A stretch of DNA of 64,000 nucleotides from Limnomonas spitsbergensis (taxonomy: Eukaryota; Chlorophyta; Chlorophyceae; Chlamydomonadales): assembly GCA_037349105.1 (NCBI GenBank), contig JAYJMM010000025.1, forward strand, positions 186,001 to 250,000, given 5' to 3'. Of this stretch, positions 21,684-28,271 are shown piece after piece. The number at the start of each line of letters is the position of its first letter. The first letter of the stretch is position 1. The translations under genes and the position numbers were made by a program. Under the pieces are notes generated by a model. The model was not told the origin of the DNA. It made no database searches and was given only the letters and a program-made list of their open reading frames with translations.

Positions 21684-24209
21684 CTACGGCGTGGGTGACG
21701 TCACGTGCTCAGCGGCCCTGCCGCTCCGGGCTTCAGGTCCCGGTAAATCCTCAAGGGCTGACTCCTCTTCCTCCCTTGCTGCTTCTTTGGCCACCTTGGC
21801 CCTTCTTGTAACTGCTCTCGGGGTGACATTGGCCTCTCCCCGGCCAGTGGTGTACGAGATGTCATACAACCCGTTCGCCATTGGTCTTGCGATGCCCCGC
21901 TCCATTTGCCTTGTTGCTGGGTTGGTGGCCATGACTTCCACCTCAGGCCTGTCCATGACGTCGGCCTCCTGGGCTGTCCTGGCAGCCGCTCTGGCCGCTG
22001 GGCTCGGTCGCCCCTGGACCTGTAAACTGCGCTCCTCTGTGGGGGGCCCTGCTACTGCAGCGGGCCCAGCTCCCTTGTCTTCCGGCGTGCAGTGTGGGCA
22101 CAACCACTCGCCCTCAGGCACCTCCTCGAGTACTGGTACCAAGCAGTCCATGTGCCAACCTGTATTGCAGGCATCACACAAAAGCATCACCTCTCCGCGA
22201 TCGGGCAGCTGGCACACCTCGCATGACAGGCTGTTATTGGGTCTGGTTCCACTGAAATCAACCACTCCCCTGAGGTTGGGCAAGTGGCATGGGGAACAAT
22301 TGACTGCATTCTCTGTAACTGTGAGGCCATCTGCCCCTTCCAGCAAAGTTCCCGTCGCCCCCAGTGTTTTTACCCTGAGGATCTCAGGCCTGGCCTTGGG
22401 ATCGAGGCTGCGTCGCTCTGACGAATACTTCACATACACGTAATCTCCCTCTGCAAAACGCCTGACCTGGGGGACATACCCTCCCCCACGAATGCGTGCA
22501 TATCGCAGCTTGTCGCGGTGCTGCGCAATTTTTAGATGCTCACCCGCGACTGGCAGTGCCTCTTTGATCCTGGCCACTCTGGCCAAAAGCAGGTCTGCTG
22601 CCTCCTCTGCCGTTGCCACCTTGGCTGTGCTCCAGAGGTCCGCTCCCACTCTGGAGGGGAAGGTAGGTCTCTGTCCGAACAGCACCTCGTACGGCGCCAT
22701 GCGCGTGGCCTGCTGCGGCGAGCATCGGAAGCCAAGGGCTACCCAGGGCACCATCTTGTCCCAGGACTCGTCGCTGCTGCCCTCCTCGCAGCACTTGCGC
22801 AGGCCTGCCTTGAGGGTCTGGACAGCCCTCTCGGAAGGCCCGTCTGCCTGGGGGTGGTTGGCAGAAGTGGTGCGATGGTCAATGAAGCAGTCCAACAACA
22901 TGTCCTGAAATTCACCCTGGAACTCTGTTCCCTGGTCTGTCACCACCTCTGCGCATCCCCCGAATCGTGCAACAACATTTTGAAAGAATGCCAAGGCCGT
23001 CACATCAGACGCCTTGCTTGGAATGGGGATCAACTCCACCCATTTGGAGTAATGCTCCACACACACCATCACAAACCGATTTCCCCTGGAAGTGGTCGTG
23101 AATGGACCACACAGGTCCACTCCCCACCGGAAAAACAACCCCTCAATGGGTAGCGGGTGCAGGTTGGGCTGTATGTGATTGAACGTGGATGCCCTGGCCC
23201 TGTCACACACACCGCATTCCTGCACCGCCTTCTTGACTGCTGCTCGAAGCCCCCGCCACCAATGCTGCTGCATGACCATGAAAGCCGTGCGGTGGCTGCC
23301 GAAATGGCCCGTACCTGCATGCGCTGTCTGGATCACTGCTAGCCTGTCTTCTGGCCTGGGCACCACACAACGTCTACCATCAGGCATGAGTCTCATCAGG
23401 ACTCCTCCCCTCTCTGATTCCCACTGGAATGGCGCTGCTCTGCGCTGTATTCTAGTCTGTTCTCCTAGCTCTGTTCCCTGGACATAAGTCTTTTCACGGA
23501 GAAACCTCAAGACGGGCTCATCTGCCCACACATCAACCCTAGCCGACGGTCCTGCAGGACAACCTGGCTGGTCCTTCTCACTCTCTATTTCCCTGGTTAC
23601 TCTGATTTCAACATCAACTTGTGCCTCAGACGCGTTCCCACCTGGTTCCTGTGCCGCGTCGGCCCAGTCTGCCGCGGCCGATTCTCCCAGGCACTGTCTG
23701 TATGACGCGGCCGCTTCCCCGCTGCCAGAGCACGCGTTTCCTGCAGTAGCAAGGGCATAGTGGCTGGACATTAAAGTCGCCCCCAGCACTGGGTCCCTGT
23801 CCTGGCTTGGCAGCTTTGCCCTGCGTGTCAATTCTGCTGGCATGATCTTAGCACACTCGAGTGCCACATTGAGCCATGCACTGAGTGCCCATGAATCCAT
23901 GCACCTGCCCAAGGCTGCCCGTCTGGCTGCCTCTGGGAAGTCTGGGCGCGGCAATGTGGACCCCACAACGTACCCCATGGCGCGTTCACGCTCGTTTGCG
24001 TTGGGCTCCTGCAAGTCCCCCATGGGCCTGTACACCATCCCATTTTGCCCGTTCCGGAAAGCATATGATGAGGGCGTGGCCATCAAACACGGCAGCACCT
24101 TCCTGGGTTGCCCTGTGACATTGATGCGGTACCCCCCATTGTCCGGACATGATACTACCTGGGCCTTGCTGCCCTTGTCCAGAATGTCGTCTACAATCCC
24201 CTCGTGGGG
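21684..24209 (-). CDS. Methyltransferase C-terminus, gypsy-type integrase and PHD finger
   Basis: The frame continues directly from the upstream polyprotein after one TGA (24,212-24,210), giving 841 codons. The first ~130 residues complete the cytosine methyltransferase (LPCLMATPSSYAF, then PNANERERAMGY, like motifs IX-X). The integrase follows. Its H2C2 finger has HAGTGHFGSH at about 23,300 and CGVC at about 23,210. The catalytic core has D in GVDLCGPF (codon 23,117-23,115), D in VVTDQGTEF (22,937-22,935) and E in GPSERAVQ (22,832-22,830). This is D-D-E with 34 residues between the last two, one fewer than the 35 I count in typical gypsy cores. Near the C-terminus a PHD finger reads CEVC, CDACNTGWHMDC and WLCPHC (about 22,230-22,090). 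PHD fingers bind histone H3 tails in many proteins, which could bias integration (inference). The tail MDRPEVEVMATNPATRQMER is also found in the relic at 49.3 kb. No ATG is evident near the frame's start, so translation probably depends on read-through. Confidence 0.88.
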   Translation of the reverse strand, partial: PHEGIVDDILDKGSKAQVVSCPDNGGYRINVTGQPRKVLPCLMATPSSYAFRNGQNGMVYRPMGDLQEPNANERERAMGYVVGSTLPRPDFPEAARRAALGRCMDSWALSAWLNVALECAKIMPAELTRRAKLPSQDRDPVLGATLMSSHYALATAGNACSGSGEAAASYRQCLGESAAADWADAAQEPGGNASEAQVDVEIRVTREIESEKDQPGCPAGPSARVDVWADEPVLRFLREKTYVQGTELGEQTRIQRRAAPFQWESERGGVLMRLMPDGRRCVVPRPEDRLAVIQTAHAGTGHFGSHRTAFMVMQQHWWRGLRAAVKKAVQECGVCDRARASTFNHIQPNLHPLPIEGLFFRWGVDLCGPFTTTSRGNRFVMVCVEHYSKWVELIPIPSKASDVTALAFFQNVVARFGGCAEVVTDQGTEFQGEFQDMLLDCFIDHRTTSANHPQADGPSERAVQTLKAGLRKCCEEGSSDESWDKMVPWVALGFRCSPQQATRMAPYEVLFGQRPTFPSRVGADLWSTAKVATAEEAADLLLARVARIKEALPVAGEHLKIAQHRDKLRYARIRGGGYVPQVRRFAEGDYVYVKYSSERRSLDPKARPEILRVKTLGATGTLLEGADGLTVTENAVNCSPCHLPNLRGVVDFSGTRPNNSLSCEVCQLPDRGEVMLLCDACNTGWHMDCLVPVLEEVPEGEWLCPHCTPEDKGAGPAAVAGPPTEERSLQVQGRPSPAARAAARTAQEADVMDRPEVEVMATNPATRQMERGIARPMANGLYDISYTTGRGEANVTPRAVTRRAKVAKEAAREEEESALEDLPGPEARSGRAAEHVTSPTP

Positions 24210-27800: not shown

Positions 27801-28271
27801 GTGCCTTGCAAACAGGTAGACGGGCATATCATCGTGAGTCGCGTGCATGTGGATCCATGCCGATGAAACGGGCAACTCCTCATCAGCCATCTCCTCATAG
27901 TAGTAAGTTACTAGCTGCTGGACTGGAATGGCTGCCCTGGCGTCCCCTGGCGCTGGCCCCCACGGCACTGCTTGTCCTGCGACCGTCCTGGGGATGACGA
28001 TGGACGCCTCTATGGTCGCGTCACACCGCCCTGGCCTGCCTGGGTGACACAGCCCTGCCCTCACTGGGGCCTGCTCTGTTGTTTCCACAAATCTCTCGAA
28101 TTCGCCCATGGCTTGGACTGGCACATAAAATGCGCGGTCTCTGAGGGCTGGGTGCCCCATCAGCTCACGGACACAATCCATCGCCCACGGTGTGCGCATG
28201 AATCCTGCTGCGCGCCCTGCCACATCCCCTCGGCTGGCGCAAGGTCTGGCATGTCCGGGTGCGCCCAGCAT
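24210..28271 (-). CDS. Polyprotein: unknown region, hydrophobic segment, pre-RT remnant, methyltransferase N-terminal part
   Basis: This 1,353-codon frame ends at TGA 24,212-24,210. Residues 1 to about 800 match no domain I know, although segments such as ELPVSSAWIHMHATHDDMP look protein-like. Residues 825-858 (MRKTTACRGLL, then GALQLILVWLLLSVCVPGA) resemble a signal peptide or membrane anchor. Residues about 969-1004 (HPDFTAEQQENLEQSL, then GAFAYSMEDLPGYCG) are the conserved stretch that precedes reverse transcriptase in gypsy elements. It is followed at once by unrelated sequence: no palm motifs, no YxDD, no RNase H. From about residue 1,150 the methyltransferase starts (EPFGG 1152-1156, Cys1245, ENV 1289-1291). 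The frame joins the upstream frame by an overlap near 28,160-28,271. The first residues may therefore be reached by frameshift rather than by initiation. Confidence 0.85.
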   Translation of the reverse strand: MLGAPGHARPCASRGDVAGRAAGFMRTPWAMDCVRELMGHPALRDRAFYVPVQAMGEFERFVETTEQAPVRAGLCHPGRPGRCDATIEASIVIPRTVAGQAVPWGPAPGDARAAIPVQQLVTYYYEEMADEELPVSSAWIHMHATHDDMPVYLFARHQQDVAVTKCASVDEAEFHAYTYARGADPAVWTLMLMALQRVLLPGQRSAAMRHVWGVEDQWAPTEVTACPTWPYGPQQSPASGAMWEGEEELASSPFAVERLAAYVHQWVRQERRAWHDNRASSVLPYWQADVITTQLWRQAHPAGVRTLHPLFRGAGEVGIEEELEDLRNQPSRGHGPVGRRGADAEEPAAATDGPVQDEEPEWTQAAFVTFGAAAASWELLEYVDDLGVSALEAEPRGRAEPQAPLDSVGTSPTEDSDSRIPELSDNVSEGPPPLVEITESDEEWHEAGARPSDQDSVTRAEARDAEGNYMPADSGPGPGSPRYGMVGELPQLRRAWMRGIFQEQAAMKERRNRRAAIELGNGITLEEEANQVTAGISHQQAADQRACRTEGAAAGKESNGRPGDPQISPPAQTAAQGPWGDPAAYSTGRWVAVLRNFVDQLDVLRRQDMGQQEAGQEASLLFRLKMLPQPDPDPRMGGYSRAVRELQEELTERVSALYTRRAEGADTQQPSDSRSRQAQTGRGEDLARRVAGARETIRRGCGQDEPAGAGNSEAVQRANHRQERMAQCSTGQIPGAGPEKASAIWADTAKLQGKNSKKARRRAGKAQRAATDRNRGSRPGMDCPTLPLRISQVDLEITWARGQQPPAQIAEPGVQPAEQLPQQPMRKTTACRGLLTCTAIKGILTGALQLILVWLLLSVCVPGARATGQGVRGGGFTAGQGAFVSGREAAAKLSSGWLRPPAVSSMRDTGGRGACSQQERWHNGNTTGEEELPAVDDPQAAVVIDMFQPGGVVEPPAEYVKTKEGWLLGKHPDFTAEQQENLEQSLRDRQGAFAYSMEDLPGYCGTQADRTGARLDIVAPEPAAREEASGKQVALLTGLGRVNQWHADQIVRMAQEGRRRVQMLRAAEAACVTAPVGQEISSAATDDDEQAQPVSTAEQAFSNRERSRTMISDVLADLPGVTPPHSLAGLDTACLSSGAVRAMETEGVVLFEPFGGMCSGLEMVLRAGIPVVQYLYADISEEVREIAGGRLLQLHKRFPQLLPVRAFDKAFRALPQDVYAITAEHLKEAGAQEGRQWFMVAGWECQDLSSAGKGRGLAGERSKSFFPLVKLLGTLQFLQGPRPPAYLIENVAMQLNQKSEKASVEAFQEVCRILGTPALFDAAQVGSYAHRTRNYWGNIAHAADIEFVIRAST

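Follow-up and report, generated by a model that had tools for sequence, protein, structure and literature searches.

A gypsy-type element without reverse transcriptase in Limnomonas spitsbergensis, best read as a spliced relative of a reverse transcriptase-bearing family

How does a young gypsy-type retroelement come to lack its own reverse transcriptase (RT)? The question is raised by a 64,000-nucleotide stretch of the green alga Limnomonas spitsbergensis (assembly GCA_037349105.1, contig JAYJMM010000025.1, positions 186,001 to 250,000; hereafter the window), in which a sequence-only reading had described a gypsy-type polyprotein with a cytosine DNA methyltransferase, an integrase and a PHD finger and without RT or RNase H, and had proposed that such an element is either mobilised in trans or has switched to DNA transposition. 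Comparison with other copies in the same genome suggests an answer: the window copy is best taken for a spliced form, lacking RT, of a family that carries the enzyme, and not for a new RT-free transposon. It occupies 19901-37250 on the minus strand and, at 17.35 kb with repeats of 631 bp (B) and 236 bp (A), is larger than first supposed. Its A blocks are identical to each other and there are 2 differences in 631 positions between its B blocks, which makes "young" a fair description.

The reported absence of RT and RNase H stands. A profile of the RT-RNase H region of 16 relatives found no match in the six frames of the whole window (best E 2.9), and the five long minus-strand open reading frames (ORFs) gave no Pfam match to RVT or RNase H. 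As a positive control, the same profile scored an RT-bearing relative at 5.6e-178, and a methyltransferase profile matched the window at 1.7e-88 and 7.8e-27. The Pfam search of the five ORFs did return CCHC, DNA_methylase (1.8e-5), Integrase_H2C2, rve and PHD. The other reported domains are thus present, but one in-frame TGA interrupts the methyltransferase, at a position where all 16 aligned relatives have an amino acid, and the frame shifts further upstream, between 29.8 and 28.2 kb. The coding parts run from a gag-like ORF with the CCHC knuckle through two out-of-frame pieces to a 1370-aa ORF ending in methyltransferase motifs, the TGA, and an 841-aa ORF with the remainder of the methyltransferase, H2C2, rve and PHD.

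The methyltransferase region is matched by 33 database proteins, and in the 16 of these that were aligned RT-RNase H lies between ..PGYxG and ..DxTGARLD (with small variations). The window reads the pre-RT ..LPGYCG and then immediately ..DRTGARLD, the sequence conserved after RNase H in relatives. Five of the 33 homologues, without an RT domain (P0004, P0013, P0021, P0031 and P0033) were rejected as RT-less forms: they begin after RT and show no RT-less joint. Scans of viral contigs returned no relative, and a scan of wider genome contigs returned one contig from a bacterial metagenome-assembled genome record (L001), in which the pre-RT motif is not in frame.

Relatives were also sought in the same assembly (260 Mb, 124 contigs; the window lies on contig C25), and ten other copies were read in two pieces each. 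The RT-RNase H block is present in nine of them, and the tenth, on C124, is without it. Each of the nine has one open frame of 5,174-5,195 aa; in one, L010, RVT_1 scored 5.7e-22 and RNase H 5.1e-30, and RT-RNase H precedes the integrase (H2C2, rve) in a single pol, the Ty3/gypsy order that the window copy does not show. Among these nine, the ratio of nonsynonymous to synonymous substitution rates (dN/dS) is 0.07 for RT, 0.08 for the methyltransferase and 0.09 for integrase-PHD, so that all three are under purifying selection. Most of 106 matches had seemed to span the RT-less joint, as if the state were a family-wide trait; the RT-bearing copies rule this out, and in them the apparent spanning came from an alignment of ~40 aa of RNase H with the segment before RT. 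Copies on C22, C84, C39 and C109 (ORFs of 4.6-4.9 thousand aa) were likewise dropped as RT-less candidates, with RNase H sequence at the place read.

The block missing from the window has the ends of an intron, which could not be seen from the window copy by itself. All nine RT-bearing copies read CAGG|GTGAGT...(pyrimidine-rich)CATCCTCAG|CYGACC with minor base changes (CCGACC in L026), and the window and C124 read CAGG|CTGACC at this site. The block is 1,368 nt long (3 x 456), that is, 456 codons free of stops. GT-AG ends, a length that is a multiple of three and no in-frame stop are the sequence features of an exitron, an intron inside coding sequence. In the copy read as L010/L011, the donor is the sole GTGAGT in the 6.7-kb part of the ORF with pol (one of two in the whole ORF, the other far upstream), and in two pieces totalling 18.5 kb no YAG other than the acceptor is preceded by 16 or more pyrimidines in 18 nt. 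Across the genome there are at least 147 exact donor contexts, with GTG in all 100 of those listed, and acceptor contexts of a minority variant have CAG in 10/10; the genome-wide totals given here and below (455, 302, 147 and 75) need exact anchors, are lower bounds and are not mutually comparable.

It had been argued that close full-length copies all carrying RT would make the window copy a chance deletion. Most do carry it, as the nine of ten copies and the donor contexts attest, but the exact spliced junction occurs at three genomic places, C25 (the window), C27 and C124. A fourth, diverged RT-less copy on C82 uses the same donor with an acceptor, CTCAG, 54 bp upstream of the usual one and in frame. 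The target duplications are TTTG for the window, TCCT for C124 and CATT for C82, and a methyltransferase-bearing, gypsy-type pol that has no RT and sits in an insertion with its own 4-bp duplication points to RT supplied in trans, in support of the earlier proposal of trans-mobilisation. From these comparisons we consider it likely that the window copy derives from a spliced element RNA copied by the RT of RT-bearing copies. Retrotransposition of spliced RNA has probably occurred more than once: by the variants on either side of the joint, the window does not fall together with the other RT-less copies.

A single splicing event could instead have founded one RT-less lineage that was then amplified in trans, which we regard as unlikely. 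The identical joint at three places would follow from it, as would the separate integration of the window and C124 copies, whose duplications differ, and C124 and C27 are close on the left of the joint (24 differences). However, both left and right of the joint the window is closer to RT-bearing copies than it is to C124; in the 2.5 kb on the right it has 8 differences from the RT-bearing copy L018 against 38 from C124. In the first 400 nt on that side, C124 has 3 differences from two RT-bearing copies and 9 from C27, and the C82 acceptor is a different one. Recombination among copies blurs this test of lineage and makes independent origins of the RT-less copies unprovable.

Ordinary deletion of the RT block, through an RT template jump or DNA repair and with the frame kept by chance, is a much poorer explanation and very improbable. 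Template jumps by RT are common in retroelements, the joint has a 1-nt ambiguity and only four RT-less copies were found. Against this, the endpoints in the copy scored coincide with the sole GTGAGT of the pol part and with the acceptor that ranks highest for pyrimidines, the exact joint is common to three places among which the window is not grouped by flanking variants, and the diverged C82 copy reuses the donor with another CTCAG acceptor. The RT-less window copy does not look like a chance deletion.

Several points weigh against the preferred reading of spliced RNA copied in trans. Splicing is read from DNA alone, and the RT-less copies are few (4 versus 147 donor contexts), so splicing may be accidental and not regulated; that close copies keep GTG speaks only weakly for selection on the donor. 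At C82 the acceptor is weak, with 13 of 18 pyrimidines, and the joint is one base off the expected one. The C27 copy is rearranged right of the joint, with its 3' end not found and no duplication readable. On the left, its 24 differences from C124 are about as many as separate each of the two from its own nearest RT-bearing copy (27 for C124, 21 for C27), and C124 and C27 may share an origin. The window copy itself, having the TGA and frameshifts, says nothing on a working RT-less protein.

Separately from the RT block, the likely RNA leader in the 5' B block (36620-37250) contains GTAAGT and GTGAGT donor-like sites, and splicing of the leader is possible.

The second unusual trait of the family is the arrangement of its repeats. 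At the 3' side, A-GC-B-A is found in the window and in each of the ten fetched copies, and the window order is B-int-A-GC-B-A, where int is the interior; identical long terminal repeats (LTRs) are therefore not found at both termini. The 5' ends start with B at TGTCAC in the window, in C124 and in 15 of 20 copies surveyed (the other five were not found in the stretch). The integrated ends are TGTCAC..GCGACA, of the TG..CA type, with 4-bp duplications that match in 16 of 17 readable pairs: 11 of 12 in the survey of 20 copies, eight of which were unreadable at one or both ends, and five further pairs (window, C124, C82:33491, C82:556423 and C117:608555). Exact A-NN-B matches number at least 455 genome-wide, with GC as the dinucleotide in 99 of 100 listed. 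The polypurine tract GGGGAGCGGGGGGCG stands directly before the internal A in all ten fetched copies (one run has an extra G) and in at least 302 exact-anchor matches. The first B is followed directly by 23 nt that are exactly complementary to a site at offset 203 within B, and these are the same in all six other copies printed.

From this arrangement we infer the following cycle. Unspliced RNA would encode a single ORF product of ~5,190 aa that includes RT, and splicing would take out 456 codons with the frame kept, so that Gag-methyltransferase-integrase-PHD is left. The RNA would serve as its own primer, by pairing of 23 nt near its 5' end with the site after the 5' B block, and would be expected to begin on ACTTCGTCCC, give or take one or two bases; a predicted fold of the leader pairs the primer site with the RNA 5' end (z -4.6, the RNA 5' end itself being predicted). 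By the ordinary rules of LTR reverse transcription, the primer site and purine tract would define a cDNA LTR of A-GC-B and cDNA ends AGTAAAG.. and ..CTCGCG. Joining of these ends, B end to A start, would give a two-LTR circle, which the rve integrase may open at the palindrome GACA|GC|TGTC to produce CA-OH ends with 2-nt overhangs, and insertion with a 4-bp stagger would then result in the integrated order B-int-A-GC-B-A.

If a circle is involved, the B|A joint should carry scars of end joining, as is found in its variants: 59 of 75 joints read CTCGCG|AGTAAAG and 16 vary (A added in 7, T in 4, TG in 2, other changes in 3), the added T and TG being the first bases of the primer site. In a further copy, L020, the joint has a deletion and TAAAGTAG repeats. 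At the joint of polypurine tract and A1, six of 100 listed differ (four substitutions and two changes in purine-run length) and none has an added base. The comparison of added bases, 13/75 versus 0/100 listed, gives a Fisher value of 8.6e-6, which is a guide only as copies share ancestry. One RT-bearing copy, C82:556423 (L073, L085), ends with the polypurine tract and A1 directly in a matching TTTG duplication; this B-int-A form is the product expected from a one-LTR circle. C117:608555 was rejected as a second such form, as it has the B|A joint, a terminal A2 and a shorter interior. Two observations count against the proposed cycle: the pair of ends on C4 (GGCA/AGCA) does not match, and the mirror product B-A-GC-B-int-A, which a cut at the other site of the circle should give, is unseen in the 15 of 20 readable 5' ends. 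The full proposal, in which RT is carried in a spliceosomal intron, splicing acts as a switch between a copying polyprotein and an RT-free methyltransferase-integrase polyprotein, and usual entry is by a two-LTR circle opened by the DDE integrase at its internal palindrome, is offered tentatively, as a possibility that we rate somewhat below even.

Split repeats could alternatively be made and inserted by a DIRS/PAT tyrosine recombinase acting in trans. PAT, DIRS, TOC and Kangaroo elements encode such an enzyme, a circular intermediate has been proposed for DIRS1-like elements, and the repeat order of the window family is that of the PAT group, with its split direct repeats (as described in the part of PMC3266345 consulted). 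The family differs from these elements in its rve integrase, TG..CA ends and 4-bp duplications, whereas DIRS1-type integration is described there without target duplication (PMC3266345). No tyrosine recombinase domain was found in an intact copy, either in its two ORF pieces or among 11 further ORFs of at least 170 aa, and we consider recombinase-driven insertion highly improbable.

A switch to DNA transposition, with the element moved by its rve integrase and no reverse transcription, fares still worse and is given hardly any credence. The DDE integrase, the TGT..ACA ends and the 4-bp duplications would suit a Ginger-like DNA transposon. But the window copy keeps the primer site, purine tract, A/B repeats and circle-type B|A joint as in its RT-bearing relatives, the family has a gag and a conserved A/B repeat order, its RT is under purifying selection, and to have lost an intron-like block means to have passed through RNA. 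From the single copy visible in the window, one might suspect a normal LTR element whose LTR is rearranged or nested, or else an error of assembly; this can practically be dismissed given the same arrangement in 10/10 other fetched copies and the genome-wide A-NN-B joints.

The methyltransferase lies between RNase H and integrase in the family, and comparison with PDB sequences places it near DNMT3: 27 of the 29 matched by that of an intact copy at E up to 1 are DNMT3A/B/C. The nearest described system is KnitGypsy-Dnmt3 of Klebsormidium nitens, a gypsy-type element with a Dnmt3-type methyltransferase in its Pol ORF that is under purifying selection; the legend of Fig. 4 gives it repeats with DIRS structure and gypsy domain composition (de Mendoza et al. 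2018, PMC5890265). Compared by description, the two are alike in all these respects. The consulted part of that account describes no RT-less copies, intron-borne RT, target duplications, self-primer, palindromic joint or circle joints, and words beginning with "split" and "circular" are absent from its main text (PMC5890265). A literature search, covering mostly titles and the opening parts of abstracts, turned up neither an element whose RT lies in an intron nor, besides that of Klebsormidium, one that combines split repeats with a DDE integrase, many subscription papers lying outside the search. Within that scope, RT inside an intron and this way of integrating both appear to be new, and split repeats in a Dnmt3-gypsy element were already known from Klebsormidium.

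Parts of the proposed cycle have parallels elsewhere. Tf1/sushi-type elements self-prime; as in them, the primer site next to the LTR is here the complement, over 23 nt, of what is probably the 5' end of the RNA, and self-priming is putative. Copia makes a spliced RNA, and foamy virus and HIV-1 proviruses are of the ordinary kind. The integrases of both viruses cleave a palindromic LTR-LTR joint to give processed ends, according to the consulted parts of PMC1180852 and PMC1905944; the window family differs in that its integrated form has the order of a cut circle and the cut site would lie inside the LTR, not at the cDNA ends. BARE1, as far as the consulted part of PMC3735527 describes it, makes a spliced subgenomic Gag RNA and is alike in splicing within a one-ORF LTR element. 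Splicing there favours Gag RNA, whereas here RT-RNase H alone would be removed, in frame, with the methyltransferase and integrase kept, and spliced-type forms are found integrated.

If the proposal is true, the production of RT by a single-ORF retroelement depends on splicing, and the question of how such elements could set the amount of RT against that of Gag and integrase has a simple answer. RT-less copies would then be markers of spliced RNA having completed the whole cycle, and the integrated copies would be natural evidence for the old, mostly abandoned idea of the two-LTR circle as a substrate of a retroviral-type integrase. With its intron-borne RT and apparently circle-based integration, the family is more interesting than the single copy.

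Table 1 Features of the RT-less element in the window, listed from its 5' to its 3' end.
Feature	Position	Strand	Remark
5' target-site duplication TTTG	37251..37254	-	
B block, 5' copy (TGTCACAG...CACCTCGCG), in the role of 5' LTR	36620..37250	-	Repeat of 20134-20764, 2/631 differ
Predicted RNA 5' end and self-primer ACTTCGTCCCTTTCTAAAGGACA	37025..37047	-	Exact complement of primer site, offset 203 in B; putative role
Primer-binding site adjoining B	36597..36619	-	23-nt complement of B site; identical in 6/6 other copies printed
gag-like ORF, 2159 aa	29484..35963	-	CCHC knuckle near 29751-29801
Two overlapping out-of-frame pieces, 418 + 293 aa	28160..29829	-	One open frame in intact relatives read
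ORF, 1370 aa	24210..28322	-	Pre-RT motif and N-terminal methyltransferase motifs
Splice-type scar ..GCACGCAGG|CTGACCGCAC..	25249..25250	-	1-nt ambiguity; site of 1,368-bp GTGAGT...CAG block in RT-bearing copies
Dnmt3-like C5 methyltransferase	23835..24887	-	Approximate span
In-frame TGA within methyltransferase	24210..24212	-	
ORF, 841 aa	21684..24209	-	C-terminal methyltransferase, integrase, PHD
Integrase_H2C2	23190..23351	-	Pfam E 3.9e-11
rve integrase core	22851..23126	-	Pfam E 6.7e-10
PHD finger	22089..22223	-	Pfam E 1.9e-10
Polypurine tract GGGGAGCGGGGGGCG	21000..21014	-	Directly upstream of AGTAAAG in 10/10 fetched copies; putative role
A block, internal copy A1	20767..21002	-	Ends ..GCGACA
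Palindrome GACAGCTGTC, A-GC-B joint	20761..20770	-	Putative integrase cleavage site
B block, 3' copy	20134..20764	-	
Terminal A block A2	19901..20136	-	Identical to A1; joined to B as CTCGCG|AGTAAAG
3' target-site duplication TTTG	19897..19900	-	

Judged by eye, P0007, P0014, P0027 and other relatives have a second S-adenosylmethionine-binding-like domain after the PHD finger (DPxxGxG.. and SPxF motifs); it was not seen in the 841-aa ORF of the window, which stops soon after the PHD finger. On C41, three copies (3967482, 3987131 and 4006780) lie exactly 19,649 bp apart, which resembles tandem duplication of the element with its flank, and the copy at C41:7826990 (L042/L062) is apparently nested in the A block of another copy, with flanks that match A reversed and a CCCC duplication. 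In the window, a minisatellite of about 40 copies of an ~89-bp unit, ~96% alike, adjoins the 5' flank of the element (37487-41019), and two more tandem arrays lie at 49456-50828 and ~52424-55400, with units of ~69 bp and 37 bp.

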